Part shown: piece by piece, positions 3,121-38,533 of the stretch
Numbering within the stretch: the stretch's first letter is position 1
Layout: each line of letters opens with the position of its first letter
Assembly: GCA_017468385.1 (NCBI GenBank)
Contig: JAFUIQ010000012.1
Location: forward strand, 1-38,991
Reading direction: 5' to 3'
DNA: 38,991 nt
Origin: Clostridia bacterium
GTDB taxonomy: Bacteria > Bacillota > Clostridia > Oscillospirales > CAG-272
Position numbers and translations under genes: made by a program
The notes under the pieces: model-generated
Database searches by the model: none
Told to the model about the DNA's origin: nothing
What the model saw: only the letters and a program-made list of their open reading frames with translations

Positions 3121-3185
3121 GGTTATCCTCAATATTGGGTACGTCAAAGCGCGTACCGTAACAACACTACAGGAGGAATGCTAAA

Positions 3186-3554
3186 GTGATTCAGCAAGAG
3201 TCTAGAATGGCCGTTGCCGACAACACAGGCGCGAAAGAGCTTCTCTGCATCCGCGTTCTGGGCGGTACTGCCAGACGATATGCGAACATCGGCGACGTGG
3301 TTGTGTGTGCTGTTAAGAAGGCAGCACCCGGCGGCGTTGTGAAAAAAGGCGATGTTGTTAAGGCTGTAATCGTTCGCAGCAAGATGGGTCTCCGCCGTGC
3401 GGATGGTTCCTATATCAAGTTCGACGAGAACGCAGCCGTAATTATCAACGAAGATAAAAACCCCAAGGGAACCCGTATCTTTGGACCTGTAGCCCGTGAG
3501 CTCCGTGAGCACGACTACACCAAGATCCTGTCCCTGGCACCCGAAGTACTGTAA
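3186..3554 (+). CDS. rplN: 50S ribosomal protein L14
   Basis: L14 lies at the subunit interface and binds silencing factor RsfS in many bacteria. The product is 122 residues, with [19 protein letters not shown] at the start and the [12 protein letters not shown] signature region. The start is GTG at 3186, about nine bases after AGGAGG. A three-codon reading frame, ATG CTA AAG TGA, occupies 3179-3190 and overlaps this GTG. It may be chance, or it may tune initiation by ribosome reloading. Confidence 0.97.
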
Positions 3555-3567
3555 GGAGGAGAAAATA

Positions 3568-3885
3568 ATGGCAAACAAAATGCACGTTAAGAAAGACGAC
3601 CTTGTCATCGTTATCTCCGGTAACAGCCGCGGTACGAAGGGTAAGGTGCTCGAAGTATCTCCCAAAGAGGGCAAGGTAATCGTAGAGGGCGCCAACAAGG
3701 TTAAGAAACACGTTAAGCCCAGAAATCAGCAGGAAAAGGGTGGCATCGTCGAGACCGAAGGTGCTATGTATGCTTGCAAGGTACAGCTTTTCTGTGAAAA
3801 GTGTGGCAAGCAGACCCGTGCTTCCCATAAGATGGACGGCGACAAAAAAATTCGTGTCTGCGCCAAATGCGGCGCCGCACTGTAA
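3568..3885 (+). CDS. rplX: 50S ribosomal protein L24, zinc-ribbon form
   Basis: L24 is an assembly-initiating 23S rRNA protein. The 105-residue product starts MANKMHVKKDDLVIVISG, the KOW motif that marks the family. It ends with a four-cysteine ribbon (CEKCGKQTR, then CAKCGAAL), as in the metal-binding L24 variants of many Gram-positives. The ATG at 3568 was chosen because AAGGAGG lies just upstream; a longer reading frame runs into rplN out of phase and has no family support. Confidence 0.97.
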   Translation: MANKMHVKKDDLVIVISGNSRGTKGKVLEVSPKEGKVIVEGANKVKKHVKPRNQQEKGGIVETEGAMYACKVQLFCEKCGKQTRASHKMDGDKKIRVCAKCGAAL

Positions 3886-3901
3886 GGCGGAGGGTTAAGC
3901 A

Positions 3902-4444
3902 ATGGCAGCAAGACTGAATGATTTGTACAAGAACGAAGTTGCTCCTGCACTCATGAAGAAATTCGAGTACAAGAGCGTTATGCAGATCCCGAAGATCGAC
4001 AAGGTTGTTATCAACGTCGGTGCGGGTGAGGCAAAAGAGAATGCAAAGGCAATCGACAGCATCATGTCCGATATCGAACTGATCGCCGGTCAGAAGCCCG
4101 TTCCCACCTTTGCTAAGAAGTCCGTCGCTAACTTTAAGGTTCGTGAAGGCATGAAGATCGGTGTAAAGGTTACGCTGCGCGGTGCGCAGATGTACGAGTT
4201 CCTCGATCGTCTGTTCAACTTCGCTCTGCCCCGCGTTCGTGACTTCAAGGGCATCAATCCCGATGCATTCGATGGCCGCGGAAACTATTCCCTGGGCCTG
4301 AAAGAACAGCTGATTTTCCCTGAAATCGAGTATGACAAGGTTGATAAGATCCGCGGTATGGATATCGCAATCGTAACAACCGCACAAACCGATGCTGAAG
4401 CAAAAGAGCTGCTCGCTCTGATGGGCGCTCCGTTTGCAAAATAA
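3902..4444 (+). CDS. rplE: 50S ribosomal protein L5
   Basis: L5 binds 5S rRNA with L18 and contacts the P-site tRNA. The 180 residues match the family length. Recognisable parts are [39 protein letters not shown] and the C-terminal [31 protein letters not shown] ribosome site precedes the ATG. The gene follows rplX by 16 bases and precedes rpsZ by 15, in normal spc-operon order. Confidence 0.97.
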
Positions 4445-4459
4445 GGGGAGGAGAAGAAT

Positions 4460-4645
4460 ATGGCAAAGACATCCATGATCCTGAAGCAGCAGAAAAAGCA
4501 GAAGTTCTCCACTCGTGAGTACAACCGCTGCAAGATCTGCGGCCGCCCTCATGCGTATCTCCGTAAGTACGGCATCTGCCGTATCTGCTTCCGTGAGCTC
4601 GCATACAAGGGCGAGATTCCCGGCGTGAAGAAAGCAAGCTGGTAA
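4460..4645 (+). CDS. rpsZ: 30S ribosomal protein S14, short zinc-binding type
   Basis: S14 completes the 30S head near S3 and S10. At 61 residues this is the short type, with a Cys4 zinc site at C24, C27, C40 and C43. Long zinc-free S14 proteins have about 90-100 residues and lack these cysteines. The ribosome site is GGGGAGGAG. The 138-base spacer that follows is unusually long for this cluster. Confidence 0.97.
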
Positions 4646-4783
4646 TCAAAATACCCCGCCGGTGAGTCCGGCAAAACACGTTCCGCACCGGAAGGAAACG
4701 AATGGCGTTTAACCACCGGTGGGCGGCCACGCAAATGTGTGGCAGCAAGAAAATTTTTACTTGCATGACAGGAGGAAACTAAA
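4646..4783 (+). other. 138-base spacer between rpsZ and rpsH with hairpin potential
   Basis: This is the longest spacer in the first part of the cluster, where most spacers are 2-30 bases. It contains short inverted repeats: GCCGG/CCGGC near the 5' end, GCCAC/GTGGC around 4728-4745 and GCAAG/CTTGC around 4745-4764, just before the rpsH ribosome site GGAGG. In other bacteria S8 represses the spc operon through mRNA structure, so a regulatory or processing role is possible. No known motif was recognised. Confidence 0.35.
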
Positions 4784-5182
4784 ATGCAGATATCAGACGT
4801 TATCGCCGATATGCTGACCCGCGTAAGAAACGCAAGCAATGCTCGCCATGAGACCGTAGACATCCCCGCTTCCAACATGAAGAAGGCTATCGCAGATATC
4901 CTTCTCGCTGAGGGCTACATCAAGGGTGTTCAGGTAATCGAAGACGGCAAACAGGGTATGATCCGCATCGCACTGAAGTATGAAGCCGGCAAGCAGAAGG
5001 TTATTCACGGCCTTCGCCGCGTTTCCAAGCCCGGTCTGCGTATCTACTCCAACTACGAAGACATGCCCAAGGTTATGAACGGCCTGGGAATCGCAATCGT
5101 GTCTACTTCCAAGGGCATTATGACCGATAAGGCAGCAAGACGCGAAAAAGTCGGCGGCGAGATTCTCGCCTTTGTCTGGTAA
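4784..5182 (+). CDS. rpsH: 30S ribosomal protein S8
   Basis: S8 binds helix 21 of 16S rRNA and is a key assembly protein; in E. coli it also represses the spc operon. The 132-residue product has the N-terminal [14 protein letters not shown] and the C-terminal [20 protein letters not shown] motif that binds RNA. The ribosome site AGGAGG is about seven bases before the ATG. It follows a long structured spacer and precedes rplF by 18 bases. Confidence 0.97.
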
Positions 5183-5200
5183 GAGGAAGGAGAGAGTAAG

Positions 5201-5740
5201 ATGTCTAGAATAGGAAAAGAACCGATCGCTATCCCCGCAGGCGTTACTGTAACGATCGAAGCGGGTAATGTGGTCACTGTAAAGGGACCTAAGGGCACCC
5301 TCACCTATGCATTCTCCCCCGCACTCACCATCGAGAATGAGGCTAACATGCTGAGCGTAAAGCGCCCCAACGATGAGGCTATGAACCGCGCTCTCCATGG
5401 CACCACCCGTGCTCTTCTCAACGATATGGTGATCGGTGTTACCGCAGGCTTCGAAAGAAAGCTGGAGATCAATGGCGTAGGTTACCGTGCACAGAAGTCC
5501 GGCAAAACTCTCACTCTGAACCTGGGTCACTCCCATCCGATCGTGTTCGAAGAGAACGAGGATATCACTTTCGATGTTCCGGACTCCAACACCGTTATCG
5601 TAAAGGGTGCTGACAAGCAGAAGGTTGGTCAGACCGCAGCGGTTATCCGCTCCAAGAGACCGCCTGAGCCGTACCTGGGCAAGGGTGTTAAGTACACCGA
5701 AGAGCGTATCCGCCGTAAAGCGGGTAAGGCCGGTAAATAA
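5201..5740 (+). CDS. rplF: 50S ribosomal protein L6
   Basis: L6 lies near the factor-binding GTPase centre. The 179-residue product begins MSRIGKEPIAIPAGV and ends with the typical RPPEPYLGKGVKY and RRKAGKAGK region, with two repeated L6 domains between. The start is supported by GGAAGGAG upstream and by the family start. Nothing is unusual in length or order. Confidence 0.97.
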   Translation: MSRIGKEPIAIPAGVTVTIEAGNVVTVKGPKGTLTYAFSPALTIENEANMLSVKRPNDEAMNRALHGTTRALLNDMVIGVTAGFERKLEINGVGYRAQKSGKTLTLNLGHSHPIVFEENEDITFDVPDSNTVIVKGADKQKVGQTAAVIRSKRPPEPYLGKGVKYTEERIRRKAGKAGK

Positions 5741-5758
5741 GGAAAGGAGACGTAAGTT

Positions 5759-6118
5759 ATGGTCGCAAAGAAAGATAAGAACGCTCAGCGTCTTAAGAGA
5801 CATCTTCGCGTTCGCAGCAAGATCAGCGGAACCGCTGAGTGCCCCCGTCTCGCTGTGTACCGTTCCAACAAGAACATCTATGCACAGATCATCGACGACG
5901 TTCAGGGCGCAACCCTTGTCTCCGCTTCTTCCCTTGAGAAGGATTTCGAGGGAATCGGCTCCAACAAAGAGGCTGCTAAGAAGGTTGGCCTGATGGTGGC
6001 AGAGCGCGCACTGAAAAAAGGAATCGAGCAGGTCGTATTCGACCGCGGCGGTTATATCTATCACGGACGTGTATCGGAGCTGGCTGCAGGTGCCAGAGAA
6101 GGCGGTCTGAAGTTCTGA
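5759..6118 (+). CDS. rplR: 50S ribosomal protein L18
   Basis: L18 carries 5S rRNA into the central protuberance together with L5. The 119 residues show [21 protein letters not shown], the 5S rRNA-binding region, and the C-terminal [23 protein letters not shown]. An AAAGGAG ribosome site lies before the ATG. A 101-base spacer separates it from rpsE. Confidence 0.97.
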
Positions 6119-6219
6119 TCCTCCCGGATCCGGATTTCACCCCATCTCACCGCAGACAGAAGGCCGGTTTGTACACTGTTTAATTTCATTACAATTAAAC
6201 AATTCATAGGAGAAAAATA
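6119..6219 (+). promoter_or_regulatory. rplR-rpsE spacer with inverted repeat, possible weak internal promoter
   Basis: The spacer holds a seven-base inverted repeat, GTTTAAT (6178-6184) and ATTAAAC (6194-6200), with a nine-base loop, just upstream of the rpsE ribosome site TAGGAG. A TTGTAC and a TACAAT hexamer 15 bases apart overlap it, which would be a poor internal promoter because the spacing is short. It could equally be an mRNA structure affecting rpsE translation. Neither role is established. Confidence 0.25.
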
Positions 6220-6723
6220 ATGGCAAAGAGATTTGACCCGTCGACTGTTGAGCTTCAGGAAAAGCTCGTAGTCGTGAACCGTGTATCCAAAACCGTTAAA
6301 GGTGGTCGTATCGCTCGCTTCGCAGCTCTGATGGTTGTAGGCGATGGCAATGGCCACGTAGGTTACGGACTCGGCAAAGCAGCCGAGGTTCCGGAAGCAA
6401 TCCGCAAAGGAATTGAAGACGCAAAGAAAAATATGATCGAGGTTTCCCTCCACGGAAATACGATCCCCCACGATGTACTGGGTGAGTACGGTGCAGGCTC
6501 CGTTCTGCTGAGACCGGCCTCCGAAGGTACCGGTATCATCGCAGGTAAGACGGTTCGTGCAATCGTTGAGCTTGCAGGTATCAAGAACATTCGTGCAAAG
6601 AGCCTCCGCTCCAACAACCCCACGAACGTTGTAAAGGCTACTTTCGAGGGCCTGAAGATGCTCCGTACCGTTGAGGAAGTGGCTAAGACCCGCGGCATCG
6701 ATGCCAACAAGGTTATCGGCTAA
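6220..6723 (+). CDS. rpsE: 30S ribosomal protein S5
   Basis: S5 contacts S4 and the mRNA entry channel and influences decoding accuracy. The 167-residue product carries the double-stranded RNA-binding S5 N-terminal domain ([22 protein letters not shown]) and the C-terminal domain ([20 protein letters not shown]). Length and order are normal. Its start is supported by AGGAG a few bases upstream. Confidence 0.97.
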
Positions 6724-6736
6724 GGAGGACAATGGA

Positions 6737-6916
6737 ATGGAAAACGTAAAAATTACTCTGGTAAAGAGCCTGATCGGCACTAAGCCGAATCAGAAGGCAA
6801 CCGCAGCATCTCTGGGGCTTCGCAAGATCGGCGATACGATCGTTCATGCCGACTCCGCTGTGCTCGCAGGCAAGGTGAAGATCCTTGCGCATCTTGTAAC
6901 TGTGGAGAAGGCGTAA
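6737..6916 (+). CDS. rpmD: 50S ribosomal protein L30
   Basis: L30 is a small 23S rRNA-binding protein present in many but not all bacteria. The 59 residues fit the family (VKITLVKSLIGTKPNQKATAAS, then LGLRKIGDTI). The ATG at 6737 is chosen over upstream in-frame starts because TAAGGAGG at the rpsE stop gives proper spacing and the family start fits. It sits between rpsE and rplO as expected. Confidence 0.95.
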   Translation: MENVKITLVKSLIGTKPNQKATAASLGLRKIGDTIVHADSAVLAGKVKILAHLVTVEKA

Positions 6917-6970
6917 AGCCCTCCGACTCGCAACTACACATTTTTGAATTCATAGAAGGAGGACTTAACC

Positions 6971-7414
6971 ATGAAGCTTCATGAACTCGCCCCCGCTGAA
7001 GGTTCCGTAAAACCCGCATGGCGTAAAGGCAGAGGTCCCGGATCCGGTAACGGCAAGACTGCCGGCAAGGGTCATAAGGGTCAGAATGCGCGCTCCGGCG
7101 GTGGTGTCCGCCCCGGCTTTGAAGGCGGCCAGCTGCCGATCTACCGTAAACTTCCTAAGAGAGGTTTCAATAACTACAAGTTCGCTAAGAACTATGCGAT
7201 CGTTAATGTTAGCGATCTGAACAAGTTCAACGACGGCGATACGGTAAATCTCGCAGTTCTGATGGAGGCTGGCGTAATCCGCAAGCCCCTGTGCGGTCTG
7301 AAAGTGCTCGGCAACGGCGAACTGACCAAAAAAATTACCGTTGAAGCAGCAATCTTTTCTGCAAGCGCAAAGGAAAAGATAGAGGCAGCTGGTGGAAAGA
7401 CCGAGGTGATCTGA
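6971..7414 (+). CDS. rplO: 50S ribosomal protein L15
   Basis: L15 is a late-assembly protein that threads into 23S rRNA. The 147-residue product has the glycine-rich basic N-terminal half ([18 protein letters not shown], then [16 protein letters not shown]) and the globular C-terminal half ending in the usual [17 protein letters not shown] precedes the ATG. Its stop is one base away from the secY GTG, so the two are probably translationally coupled. Confidence 0.97.
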
Positions 7415-34734: not shown

Positions 34735-34863
34735 ATGAATCTCGGAAATAAAATCCGTGAATTGCGCAGAGCGGGAAGTCTTACCCAGGAGCAGTTGGCT
34801 GCCGCGCTGAATATTTCCCCGCAGGCGGTATCCAAGTGGGAAATGAGGGTTTCCCAAACTTAA
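34735..34863 (+). pseudogene. Truncated XRE-family regulator
   Basis: Forty-two residues encode an intact helix-turn-helix (GNKIRELRRAGSLTQEQLAA, then ALNISPQAVSKWE) and then stop, where relatives go on for at least 20 further residues. Downstream, another frame reads PKLKDTTLKPTLALLP, resembling the usual continuation, so a frameshift is likely near 34848-34860. A promoter (TTGCTT at 34659-34664, TATACT at 34682-34687, 17-base spacing) and an AAGGAG site are still present, so a short peptide may be made. Confidence 0.7.
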
Positions 34864-34927: not shown

Positions 34928-35173
34928 ATGAAACGCCTTATATCCTGCGAATATAACTTCGAAAACTGCTGTGTGGAGCTGAAATTTACCGATGGCAGCA
35001 TGATTGCGATTGACACTATCGCAGCGGAGAACGAGGTTGCCCGTAATATGTACGAACGATCAGAACTTGATTATCTGGTCTACAACGCGCCGCTTGAATA
35101 TGCCAAACTAATTTTGAACGGCGATCCCGAAACATATCTGAAAACTGCAACGGAGTATAAACCTTTAGATTGA
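34928..35173 (+). CDS. Small DUF6061-like protein
   Basis: An 81-residue acidic protein, MKRLISCEYNFENCCVELKF and so on, with CC at residues 14-15 and a LDYLVYNAPLEYAKLILNGD core. I recognise it from memory as resembling the DUF6061 family of gut Bacillota; the function is unknown. The ATG at 34928 follows TTGGAGGT at proper distance. It stands in AT-rich sequence directly after a decayed XRE gene, which suggests an accessory segment. Confidence 0.7.
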   Translation: MKRLISCEYNFENCCVELKFTDGSMIAIDTIAAENEVARNMYERSELDYLVYNAPLEYAKLILNGDPETYLKTATEYKPLD

Positions 35174-35558
35174 AAATGGCAATATCGGCTGTATCTGCAA
35201 AAAAGGCGGATACAGCCGATAATTTTATCTCATACGATGTCCTGTACGAAAAGGGGCATATTTCACTTAACGAAAAAGCGTGAGAACACACGGAAAGATA
35301 GATACACCCACATTTTCGTGTACCGTATTCACTATACTGATAAGCACGAACTTGTAAAATGATGATTTTCTGCGGTGAAGATAATTACGAATTTCACAAC
35401 AATCTATTTTGAGATAGCAAAACAGTCACGCGCCGAAATTCCTAACCGTCCTAATGCTGTATATTTTTCAAAGAAATACTCCCTCACCTATTGAAAAAAG
35501 AGATGAAATGTGATATAATATAAATAATAATGATTAATTGTGCAAGTGAGGAGAGCAA
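35174..35558. other. AT-rich intergenic stretch without a convincing gene
   Basis: This 385-base stretch opens with an inverted repeat, ATCGGCTGTATC/GATACAGCCGAT (35184-35220), that may end the upstream gene but lacks a T-run. A 35-codon frame (35176-35283) runs through this hairpin and has no recognisable ribosome site, so it is probably not a gene. Nothing else was recognised until the promoter at 35491. Confidence 0.5.
35491..35519 (+). promoter_or_regulatory. Promoter of the XRE/LuxR membrane-regulator unit
   Basis: TTGAAA at 35491-35496 and TATAAT at 35514-35519 with a 17-base spacer, about 40 bases before the XRE start codon. Confidence 0.8.
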
Positions 35559-35777
35559 ATGAATATTAAGGAACTGAAGTTCAGCGATGCTGTTAAATTT
35601 GTCCGCATGAAGCTTGGTCTTTCGCAGACCGAGCTTGCGAACGCAATCGGCGTATCTCTGCCGACGGTAAGCCGATGGGAGAACAAAGACCGTGAGCCCC
35701 GGATGAAGACTCTCGGCAAATTTTATGCGTTCTGTCGGGAAAAAGGGATCGACTTTGAGGAGGTGGATTCGGAATGA
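35559..35777 (+). CDS. XRE-family DNA-binding protein, coupled to the membrane LuxR gene
   Basis: A 72-residue single-domain regulator with the helix-turn-helix LSQTELANAIGVSLPTVSRW around residues 20-39, and a short C-terminal part ending GIDFEEVDSE. GAGGAGAG precedes the ATG. Its stop overlaps the start of the following 731-residue gene as ATGA, so the two are made from one mRNA in fixed ratio. A joint role is inferred: it may repress the shared promoter or act with the LuxR domain. No operator was identified. Confidence 0.88.
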   Translation: MNIKELKFSDAVKFVRMKLGLSQTELANAIGVSLPTVSRWENKDREPRMKTLGKFYAFCREKGIDFEEVDSE

Positions 35778-37969
35778 ATCACAGAAAGCTTATATCACAC
35801 GCGATTTCCGTATTTTTCATGATTATGCTGATCCTCGGTGCAGTCAGCGTATGTGTTTCTGCCGCCGAACCTGATCTGATCACCACCGAAGCAGAACTGA
35901 AGGAAGCACTTCATAACGCCAAAGAGGGAGATACGATTCTTGTCGGAGATATTGAATTTGCTTACTCACCGATGGGTATGACACTTTCAAAGGGTGTGAC
36001 GGTCAAAAGCGGAAAGGACACGCCTGCGGTCTTTTCGGGCGGTGCGTTTGCCGTGATGGGCGGCGCATCCGAGCAGGATGTCATAAGTATCCGCTTTGAA
36101 GATATCACATTTTCGGGTGTGAATGATATTGACAGCATTGACTTTACGGGAAAGCAGATCATGACCGCGACCAAGATTCGTCCGGCGGTGTTTTTCTCCC
36201 GCTGTATCGATGCCGCGTTTGTTCGCTGTGATTTTTCGGGCTACAGTATGGCAAACGGCGGTGCCGTTTACGGCATATACTCATCTGCCGACAGCAAGGG
36301 ATACCGACTGTCCGTTTCCTTTGAGGACTGTTCCTTGAATTCCAATGCGGGCGGCTACGGCGGCGCAATCTATTTGTCCGGGGCAGGCAACATCTTTTTA
36401 TCCATGAAAAACTGTGAGCTGTCCCGCAATGTTGCCGGCTATGGCGGTGCAATATGGGCGGATCAGACAGCGGTCACGCTGGAGAACTGTCGGATCACCG
36501 GAAACCGCTTTGAGGATTTCTACCCCGATACGCTGACAAAGGGCGGCGGTATCTATGTGGGCCGCGGAACGCTTACGATGAAAAATTGCTATGTAACGGA
36601 TAATGAAGCGCGAAACGGCGGCGGTGTGGCTCTTTCCTATACCGAAAGCGATCTTGACGGATGTGTGATATCGTGCAATATCGCAAGAGAAAACGGCGGC
36701 GGTATCTGGAATGAGAATAACGGCAACAATCTCGTTACAATCGTCAACAGCACACTTGCGAACAATACGGCAGCGGACGGCGGCGCGCTTTACATATCCG
36801 AAAATGAAGCAGTGCTTGGCGGCGGAGGGCTCGGCAAGACCTTCCTTATTCTTTCCACCTTGTCAGGCAACACACCTGCTATGAAGGAATATGATGCCCA
36901 GCGTCTGTCCCTGTTCGGATGCGCCCTTCACGGCGAAGACCGCGGAGAGGCGATGCCGTCCGATGACAATCGGTATTGCTATGCGACCGATGTACTTCAT
37001 ACAGGTGATCCGTACGAGCATCTGGATGGAAGCATCGAGCTTGACTCCGCCGTGCTGGAGGGGGTGGCCGGTGATCGCTTTGACAACCGGTATGGCCGCT
37101 TCCTTGTCGGCAATAACGCATATTCCGATACAACCTACCGTTTTCTTGTGGACGGCGAAGTGAAGCATACCGTCACCGTGGGATACGGCGAGCAGCCGCT
37201 CCTTCCCGAATATGAAAAGACAGGCTGCACGTTTGACTGCTGGCAGTATGAGGACGGATGCGATTGGGAGCACGATTCGATGGTCTATGTGGGCAGTGGT
37301 TCGGAATTCATCGATCTGTGTGCCGTCTGGACACCGAATACCTACGAGGTCACGTTTGTATCAGGCGAAATGCAGAATAAGGTCAGCTGTGCATACGGCT
37401 CTTCGCCGGCATTCCCCGAACCGCCGGATAAAAACGGACAGGTCTTTGTCGGCTGGTTTACCATGCCGGACGGCGGAGGCGAGCCCATTGCGGACGGTGA
37501 ACCCCTTTTGCGTGCAGAAAATGTGACCTACTATGCGTATTACCGAAATAAAGTGTCCGCACTTCCCATTGTGCTGATCGCCTCCGCCGTTGTCCTCATC
37601 ATAGCTGGTGCGGCATGGTTTGTGATCTCACACAGAAGAAATGCTGCGGCTGCATCAGCCATCGAAGCCGTGGTACAGCCCACCGAAGAACCCCAGGCGT
37701 CTCCCATCATCGTCAAGACGCGATATACGGACGAGGAGATCGACCGTATCATACAGGATACAACGGAGACACACATCTTTACCGACCGTGAGCTTGACGT
37801 ATTCCGTGAGCTGCTCAAGGGTAAGAAACAAAGCGAGATCGCCTACTATCTCGGCATTACCGTCAACACCGTGAAGGAATATACGAGAAAGGTTTACGGC
37901 AAGCTCGGCGTTTCAAACAAAGGAGAAATGTTTGACCTGATCTCCGCCAAGATGAACAAAAACGAATAA
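35774..37969 (+). CDS. Membrane-spanning regulator: extracellular beta-helix and InlB-like repeats, cytoplasmic LuxR-type HTH
   Basis: A 731-residue protein with an unusual order of parts. Residues 1-30 form a signal peptide (VCVSA cut). Residues about 35-400 form a right-handed beta-helix, shown by repeats such as GGAIYLSG, CELSRNVAGYGGAIW, CRITGNR and GGGIYVGRGTLTMKNC. Two InlB/Flg_new-type repeats follow at about 455-520 and 523-592. One membrane helix lies at 596-618, with RR after it. A linker leads to a LuxR/GerE helix-turn-helix at about 669-725 (FTDRELDVFRELLKGKKQSE, ITVNTVKEYTRKVYGKLGVS). The topology is beta-helix outside and DNA-binding domain inside. It probably senses a surface ligand and acts directly on transcription; this role is inferred. 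Confidence 0.9.
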   Translation: MNHRKLISHAISVFFMIMLILGAVSVCVSAAEPDLITTEAELKEALHNAKEGDTILVGDIEFAYSPMGMTLSKGVTVKSGKDTPAVFSGGAFAVMGGASEQDVISIRFEDITFSGVNDIDSIDFTGKQIMTATKIRPAVFFSRCIDAAFVRCDFSGYSMANGGAVYGIYSSADSKGYRLSVSFEDCSLNSNAGGYGGAIYLSGAGNIFLSMKNCELSRNVAGYGGAIWADQTAVTLENCRITGNRFEDFYPDTLTKGGGIYVGRGTLTMKNCYVTDNEARNGGGVALSYTESDLDGCVISCNIARENGGGIWNENNGNNLVTIVNSTLANNTAADGGALYISENEAVLGGGGLGKTFLILSTLSGNTPAMKEYDAQRLSLFGCALHGEDRGEAMPSDDNRYCYATDVLHTGDPYEHLDGSIELDSAVLEGVAGDRFDNRYGRFLVGNNAYSDTTYRFLVDGEVKHTVTVGYGEQPLLPEYEKTGCTFDCWQYEDGCDWEHDSMVYVGSGSEFIDLCAVWTPNTYEVTFVSGEMQNKVSCAYGSSPAFPEPPDKNGQVFVGWFTMPDGGGEPIADGEPLLRAENVTYYAYYRNKVSALPIVLIASAVVLIIAGAAWFVISHRRNAAAASAIEAVVQPTEEPQASPIIVKTRYTDEEIDRIIQDTTETHIFTDRELDVFRELLKGKKQSEIAYYLGITVNTVKEYTRKVYGKLGVSNKGEMFDLISAKMNKNE

Positions 37970-37982
37970 CCGCCGCTTGATG

Positions 37983-38011
37983 AAAAGCAGTCGAGAAATC
38001 GACTGCTTTTT
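37983..38011 (+). terminator. Terminator after the membrane LuxR gene
   Basis: A 12-base-pair stem, AAAAGCAGTCGA/TCGACTGCTTTT, with a GAAA loop and a fifth T after the stem. Confidence 0.9.
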
Positions 38012-38185
38012 GTCATATTATGGAATTTTCGGCCGTACCCACCCTCCATCCCCCCTTTTTTTGTAAAAAAATTGAGGATTCCCCCCCATTTTCCCTACCA
38101 CAGGGAGGGTCACAAGATGAAAATTTTCCTGTATACTGTAGCTGCACGAAAAAACAATGACGGCTTCAGGAAAGGAGGCGGGAGA

Positions 38186-38533
38186 ATGTTAGAGCCTGTA
38201 ACCAAAAAATTTGAGGATGGCTCAACGCTTGAAACCTTCAGATTTACCTTCTTTTGTGACATCTGCGGCAAAGCGGTCAAGGAGATCACATATCCTTATA
38301 AACCGCCTTTCAAAGCCAAATTTTTCATCTCGAAGTCTGAACGCAGGGCGAGAGAGCTGCTCTGGCTGCACGATCATGACAGTGCGTATGAGCGTGCCAA
38401 CAAGGAGGTTCTGCTCCAATTCAATCGCTGTCCCGTCTGCGGAAAGCGTGTATGTGAAGATTGCTACCACGAATTGGAGGGACTCTGCCGCGAATGTGCA
38501 AGGAAAACAAGAGGAGAAAAAGATGTAGGCTGA
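38186..38533 (+). CDS. Small Cys-rich (zinc-binding) protein
   Basis: A 115-residue protein with four CxxC pairs: C24/C27, C82/C85, C90/C93 and C101/C104. This pattern suggests two or more zinc sites, one near the N terminus and a cross-brace-like group at the C terminus. The family was not recognised and no function is claimed. The ATG at 38186 follows AAAGGAGG at ideal spacing. An in-frame ATG at 38117 also has a good site (GGGAGG) and would add 23 residues. It lies downstream of the membrane LuxR gene but after its terminator. Confidence 0.75.
   Translation: MLEPVTKKFEDGSTLETFRFTFFCDICGKAVKEITYPYKPPFKAKFFISKSERRARELLWLHDHDSAYERANKEVLLQFNRCPVCGKRVCEDCYHELEGLCRECARKTRGEKDVG

Follow-up and report, generated by a model that had tools for sequence, protein, structure and literature searches.

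A putative single-pass membrane LuxR regulator with a β-helix ectodomain and its gene cassette in gut Clostridia

In ToxR and CadC the DNA-binding domain, a winged helix, lies at the N terminus. LuxR regulators of Eggerthella lenta with 12 transmembrane helices instead carry a C-terminal helix-turn-helix (HTH) and activate neighbouring genes; DadR, CadR and HcdR are examples among the 10–12-helix proteins of E. lenta/Coriobacteriia (PMC9734109). A survey of transmembrane transcription regulators (TTRs), which combine a DNA-binding domain with at least one transmembrane helix in one protein, counts 50,302 of them, single-pass forms being the commonest (about 56%), and includes TTRs with extracellular Y_Y_Y domains; no β-helix ectodomain appears in the portions covered here (PMC10269533). 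The RsgI factors of Clostridium thermocellum, which are cut within the transmembrane helix by RseP, work through a sigma factor and proteolysis (PMC12203970). An earlier note on the DNA described here had treated an outside-first order, with the DNA-binding domain at the C terminus, as unprecedented. Since a C-terminal HTH already has precedents among membrane LuxRs, and the E. lenta proteins and the Y_Y_Y TTRs precede this one (PMC9734109 and PMC10269533), that argument for novelty falls; what is new is the variant with a β-helix sensor. Neither a β-helix/LuxR membrane regulator nor an XRE–LuxR–DZR cassette was found in the open-access literature searched.

The window, by which we mean the whole stretch of 38,991 nucleotides analysed, contains a LuxR gene (35774–37969; ORF call, Pfam and hydropathy; this and all features below lie on the + strand) encoding a protein of 731 residues. 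Pfam, hydropathy and an AlphaFold2 model agree with the earlier note in giving this protein a signal sequence, a β-helix, InlB repeats, one transmembrane helix and a C-terminal LuxR domain. The signal sequence (residues 1–31, 35774–35866), apparent in the hydropathy profile from about residue 10, is modelled as a helix over residues 2–25, the cleavage site being placed by eye. It is followed by the β-helix (residues 33–408, 35870–36997), with a match to Beta_helix (PF13229) over residues 167–341 (E 1e-10), and by an InlB/Flg_new B-repeat region of approximate limits (residues about 452–592, 37127–37549), in which two stretches match Flg_new (PF09479; best 524–588, E 2.7e-12). The transmembrane helix, which the note had placed at residues 596–618, was confirmed by hydropathy, at 599–617 (37568–37624, mean 2.74), and the HTH (residues 668–719, 37775–37930) scores as LuxR/GerE (PF00196, E 1.8e-11), all of these Pfam matches being above cut-off. 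The AlphaFold2 model, built from six sequences with a mean pLDDT of 69.8, comprises a β-solenoid and an HTH domain, with a pLDDT under 50 for residues 595–646; the linker joining the transmembrane helix to the HTH is variable in the family. Lysines and arginines after the transmembrane helix outnumber those before it in nine of 11 homologs, the remaining two, including the window protein with two on either side, being ties. In the predicted topology the C terminus with the LuxR domain would be intracellular and the β-helix extracellular. Judged from its sequence, then, one protein of a gut bacterium appears to carry a large β-helix domain outside and a gene-switching LuxR domain inside, and the one-protein membrane regulator proposed in the note is supported as a prediction.

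By this prediction the window protein is a TTR, having a DNA-binding domain and at least one transmembrane helix in one chain. It resembles ToxR and CadC as a single-pass membrane one-component regulator, but its HTH is C-terminal and of the LuxR type, and its N terminus, unlike theirs, consists of a signal sequence and a β-helix. Pfam searches up to E 1 gave no match to an N-terminal winged-helix domain, to the receiver domain of NarL-type response regulators, to the autoinducer-binding domain of quorum-sensing LuxRs or to the RsgI-type N-terminal anti-sigma domain, a signal sequence standing in the place of the last. With DadR, CadR and HcdR the protein shares an N-terminal membrane sensor and a C-terminal LuxR HTH, the latter confirmed by Pfam; the Coriobacteriia proteins have 10–12 transmembrane helices and no large ectodomain, whereas the window protein has, apart from its signal sequence, one transmembrane helix by hydropathy, together with a β-helix, an XRE partner and a DZR operon (PMC9734109). 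RsgI is likewise a transmembrane substrate sensor of a Gram-positive bacterium, whereas the DNA-binding domain of the window protein would sit on the same chain as its sensor (PMC12203970). The fold of residues 33–408 is that of β-helix polysaccharide lyases and epimerases and also resembles phage tailspikes and adhesins; AlgE6, RbmB and PfbA have a similar fold but no DNA-binding domain. A fold common to enzymes, tailspikes and adhesins names no ligand, and the host glycans or cell wall suggested in the note are conjectural candidates. A single acidic residue, E109, is invariant in the ectodomain across nine diverse members. The β-helix, predicted to lie outside the cell, is probably non-enzymatic.

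A first search of genome contigs returned six loci, five of them related over nearly their whole length and belonging to MAGs of gut Clostridia from sheep, goat, roe deer and water deer; at the sixth (L006) the match was confined to the InlB part. Wider searches covered 295 genomes of the family, 394 of the order and 391 of the class, each an even draw, with some overlap possible; the class search, run at E 1e-18, gave no further locus with the ectodomain. The raw tallies (47/295 in the family, 27/394 in the order) include InlB-only, β-helix-only and HTH-only matches, and membership was defined by an ectodomain match plus an HTH wherever the C terminus is present on the contig. On this definition the same domain order, which the note had suggested seeking in other genomes, is found at 15 loci in 13 genomes, 11 in the family of the window and two in a second family, most of the sequences being MAG contigs. 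All 13 homologs with an intact C terminus retain the HTH; at L060 and L063 the contig stops short of it. None of the outcomes that the note had named as refuting its model (no GerE/LuxR score, no membrane-spanning segment, homologs lacking the HTH) was observed. Whole-gene dN/dS is 0.09–0.14 (five pairs); comparing the window with L001 or L003, the last 85 codons give 0.09–0.11 at a saturated dS. The most divergent member, L028 (G015, 3165–7185), has a lipoprotein-like signal and lacks InlB repeats; it adjoins GH3-like and AraC-like genes, named by eye, which hint at a carbohydrate setting.

Upstream of the LuxR gene lies a gene for an XRE-family protein of 72 residues (35559–35777; ORF call, HTH_3 E 1.5e-12 and homologs), and the two ORFs overlap by four bases, ATGA. 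A sigma-70-like promoter for the pair (35491–35519, TTGAAA-17-TATAAT) has 11 of 12 consensus matches; the promoter scan gave seven promoter-like sites in the region against 3.5 expected by chance, and a similar sequence precedes other loci (by eye). The note had proposed 35480–35560 as a LuxR target, a segment that holds this promoter of the cassette itself; from the sequence, a better candidate target is 38103–38137, outside the interval 35559–37969 to which the note was confined. Its further claim, that the overlap points to joint function of XRE and LuxR, is supported for part of the family. An XRE homolog lies just upstream of the LuxR gene at all six DZR-linked loci with a seven-transmembrane (7TM) sensor, L091 and L095 repeating the four-base overlap and L093 having a stop that interrupts the beginning of the XRE frame; in four 7TM loci the homologs are 50–54% identical to the XRE protein of the window over the aligned length. 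Among 13 β-helix loci with upstream DNA, however, only four (the window, L001, L005 and L059) have the XRE gene, and at L062 and L063 a different, divergent HTH_3 gene is found instead. Being present at only part of the β-helix loci, the XRE protein is dispensable.

The unit is in fact wider than the pair recognized earlier, comprising a small XRE gene, the membrane LuxR gene and a small cysteine-rich gene, here called DZR. In the window DZR, the candidate target gene, encodes 115 residues (38186–38533; ORF call, profile searches and neighbourhoods) and is followed by a further operon gene whose end carries a cysteine pair and which is truncated by the contig end (38590–38991). The DZR protein has no Pfam or NCBIfam match above cut-off, and Foldseek found nothing significant for its model (mean pLDDT 79; lowest E 0.4). 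DZR lies near ten of the 13 β-helix loci for which that flank is available and is absent from the stretch at L059, L061 and L028; at L004 it is cut by the contig end, at L083 it stands one gene further on and at L084 it is on the opposite strand. The genes 3′ of DZR vary, with zinc-ribbon proteins, DUF4870 membrane proteins (E 6.6e-8 in the L115 operon) and lipoprotein-like ORFs recurring, and the L092 operon has additional TPM-domain and SLH-domain genes. From this gene content an envelope role of the DZR operon is plausible, and because TPM and DUF4870 genes occur near some copies we considered whether the cassette might connect with the PSP envelope-stress network. At L002 and L003 (7940–12391) DZR is followed by a lipoprotein-like, repeat-filled ORF of more than 1,480 residues that runs off the end of the stretch and differs in repeat content between the two loci; this ORF may be another target under cassette control.

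A DZR profile matched in 14 of 290 family, 20 of 381 class and 11 of 179 phylum genomes. We inspected 31 neighbourhoods, namely all 15 family matches and 16 of the 21 other class-level matches; of the phylum-level matches, the G000 neighbourhood was covered. A LuxR-HTH gene lies directly upstream of DZR in 16 of the 31 (in G298 only its HTH end is on the contig), 14 have no LuxR gene in that position, most of these being longer DZR forms, and in G082 DZR begins at the contig edge. In G045 DZR follows a soluble response regulator and in G907 there is a convergent two-transmembrane LuxR gene. Besides the β-helix, the sensors beside DZR are of other kinds: 7TM at six loci, counting L091 and L092 from the order-level search, all with XRE (L098, the one 7TM locus tested, matches HisKA_7TM, PF16927, at E 5.5e-14); two-transmembrane in G979 and G962, with an ectodomain that has no Pfam match; and about ten transmembrane helices in G988, resembling the 10–12-helix LuxRs of Coriobacteriia. 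G151, G298, G979, G962 and G988 were outside the alignment of the profile, and their LuxR neighbours are therefore independent support; in G151 (7TM), G979, G962 and G988 DZR directly follows the LuxR gene. Among family genomes, eight have the sensor and a strong DZR match (E 1e-30), two DZR only, three the sensor only and 277 neither (Fisher p 6e-12, with draws of 295 and 290 genomes merged and shared ancestry ignored). Related bacteria appear to have retained the same kind of switch with different outside sensors. We tentatively extend this, as a possibility in which our confidence is limited, to a plug-and-play signalling chassis in gut Clostridia, made up of XRE, a membrane LuxR and a DZR operon with its own operator; unrelated sensors would have been mounted on it by evolution and recombination, the β-helix form being a surface-contact or polymer receptor that would write directly to one promoter. 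An assignment of the 534-residue sensor as a Cache protein was dropped, Pfam giving only GerE in L114 at E 0.01. At L114 and L115 an ORF resembling an extracellular solute-binding protein (by eye) precedes the two-transmembrane LuxR gene and is perhaps part of sensing. Another LuxR of about 560 residues, with two hydrophobic segments, occurs in G000 and relatives (L010, L013 and L024, the last at G000:C3:7460), with no DZR in the approximately 3 kb examined.

The LuxR gene is followed by a terminator-like hairpin (37978–38015; −24.4 kcal/mol, z −8.6, reached in 0/200 shuffles), which is absent from the list of a separate terminator scan. Beyond it lies a candidate operator, GGGAGGGTCACA (38103–38114), whose last six bases form the weak −35-like element GTCACA of a putative DZR promoter, GTCACA-17-TATACT (9/12), with its −10 box at 38132–38137. 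The box adjoins a weak −35 with a spacer of 17 at the DZR promoter in the window and in L001–L005, with one mismatch in L001; it is identical in the window, L002 and L003, the 17-bp spacer differing. An exact search of six genomes found one copy in each of five, always before DZR, and none in G171, the reversed control giving zero matches. As about 0.4 chance copies (0.3–0.6) of an exact 12-mer are expected per genome, the single occurrence is only mild evidence, and as the 12-mer was derived from these loci, its presence at them is no independent test; what the genome search adds is the absence of a second exact copy against the 0.3–0.6 expected. Two mismatches allowed, the window has two matches against 3.4 expected, which is no enrichment. 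In L001 and L002 the distance from the end of the box to a −10-like hexamer is 21 bp, and repeats occupy similar positions in other loci: one like TAGCCYTARGGCTA ends 24 bp before such a hexamer in five of the six 7TM loci, and a ATCACCCT..GGGTGAT repeat ends 22 bp before it in both two-transmembrane loci. The AAAGTAGCCCTARG pattern is present in five of six 7TM genomes (not in G416) and absent from G000 and G134; its reversed control matched twice in G000 and twice in G726. A classical inverted repeat is supported by shuffling at L114 and L115 (2/500 each) and L098 (9/500) and weak at L093 (26/500), L095 (34/500) and L058 (43/500); at L062 no shuffle of 500 reached the score, but the repeat resembles a terminator. 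For the box itself a classical inverted repeat is not supported, its score being reached by 238/500 shuffles in the window, 375 at L001 and 345 at L002, and such an operator is also unsupported at L091, L094, L092 and L099.

We favour, with moderate confidence, a transmembrane one-component regulator that acts locally and whose sensor can be exchanged; a ligand would lead it to activate the DZR operon through the box. The β-helix and InlB repeats would lie outside the membrane and the LuxR domain inside; binding of a ligand, most plausibly a polymer or surface glycan, would alter how the tethered LuxR domains pair or are positioned, and these would bind the box overlapping the weak −35 and activate, presumably rather than repress, the DZR operon. 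The promoter of the cassette is near consensus (11/12); in the simplest model a membrane activator would be made steadily and would act on a single neighbouring target. The co-translated XRE protein would have an accessory regulatory role, perhaps at the promoter of its own cassette. The favoured model is supported by the palindromes that precede DZR at comparable positions in 7TM and two-transmembrane loci, and by the activation of neighbouring genes by the E. lenta 12-transmembrane LuxRs (PMC9734109). The single transmembrane helix, large ectodomain and variable linker would suit a release model like Notch or RsgI, in which a ligand or pull leads to a cut in or near the membrane and a freed LuxR fragment diffuses to the promoter; the cleavage of C. 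thermocellum RsgI factors in their transmembrane helix provides a precedent (PMC12203970). We consider release unlikely, as the presence of 7TM and approximately ten-transmembrane members on the same chassis makes one such mechanism for all less likely.

The constant pairing at DZR-linked 7TM loci, and the four β-helix loci that share it, could instead mean that it is XRE which binds and regulates at the DZR box, with the membrane LuxR mainly controlling XRE. This seems to us more improbable still: G134 and G302 keep GGGAGGGTCACA with no XRE homolog detectable at E 1e-10, which points to LuxR as the reader, and the two-transmembrane loci have DZR and palindromes with no XRE match in the stretch examined. 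We infer from these sequence comparisons that LuxR, not XRE, reads the box. A role for the protein as a surface adhesin or structural component, its HTH vestigial or serving another purpose, accords with a fold common to adhesins and tailspikes, but the retention of the HTH in every homolog with an intact C terminus and the low dN/dS over the last 85 codons, saturated dS notwithstanding, make it very improbable. If the favoured model of a tethered, locally acting LuxR is correct, bacteria would rewire sensing by swapping a receptor's outer half while its DNA-binding output stays fixed, the loci would offer matched sensor/promoter pairs for testing transmembrane signalling by a rigid single-pass β-helix receptor, and an unannotated family of small cysteine-rich proteins would acquire its first functional setting.

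L005 looks, on its sequence, like a natural sensor swap, with an ectodomain from another lineage on a window-like output half. Over the first 150 bases it shares 94% identity with L001 and 84% with the window, its ectodomain is 79–94% identical to L062 and, from about base 2100 to the end, DZR included, it is 95–100% identical to the window, the switch in identity sitting in an InlB repeat; as L005 is one 3.2-kb MAG contig, it may be an assembly chimera. L002–L004 are 97–98% identical across two genera, for which lateral spread is likely from sequence and MAG binning error possible (G270 is 64% complete). A mobile or viral origin was considered and rejected, P0001 matching nothing among phages or plasmids at E 1e-5 and none of 195 pattern matches in viral contigs being confirmed. 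At L059 (G299:C148, 3664–4900) the β-helix LuxR gene lies beside a relaxase gene (PF03432, E 2.9e-33) and a MobC-like ORF, and this copy may therefore be part of a mobilizable element. At L003 the gene just upstream of the LuxR locus (3808–4674) encodes a recombinase zinc-ribbon protein (PF13408, E 2.8e-11). In the window itself, a short XRE-like ORF of 42 residues that ends after its HTH (34735–34863) is followed by a DUF6061 gene (34928–35173; PF19537, E 6e-39).
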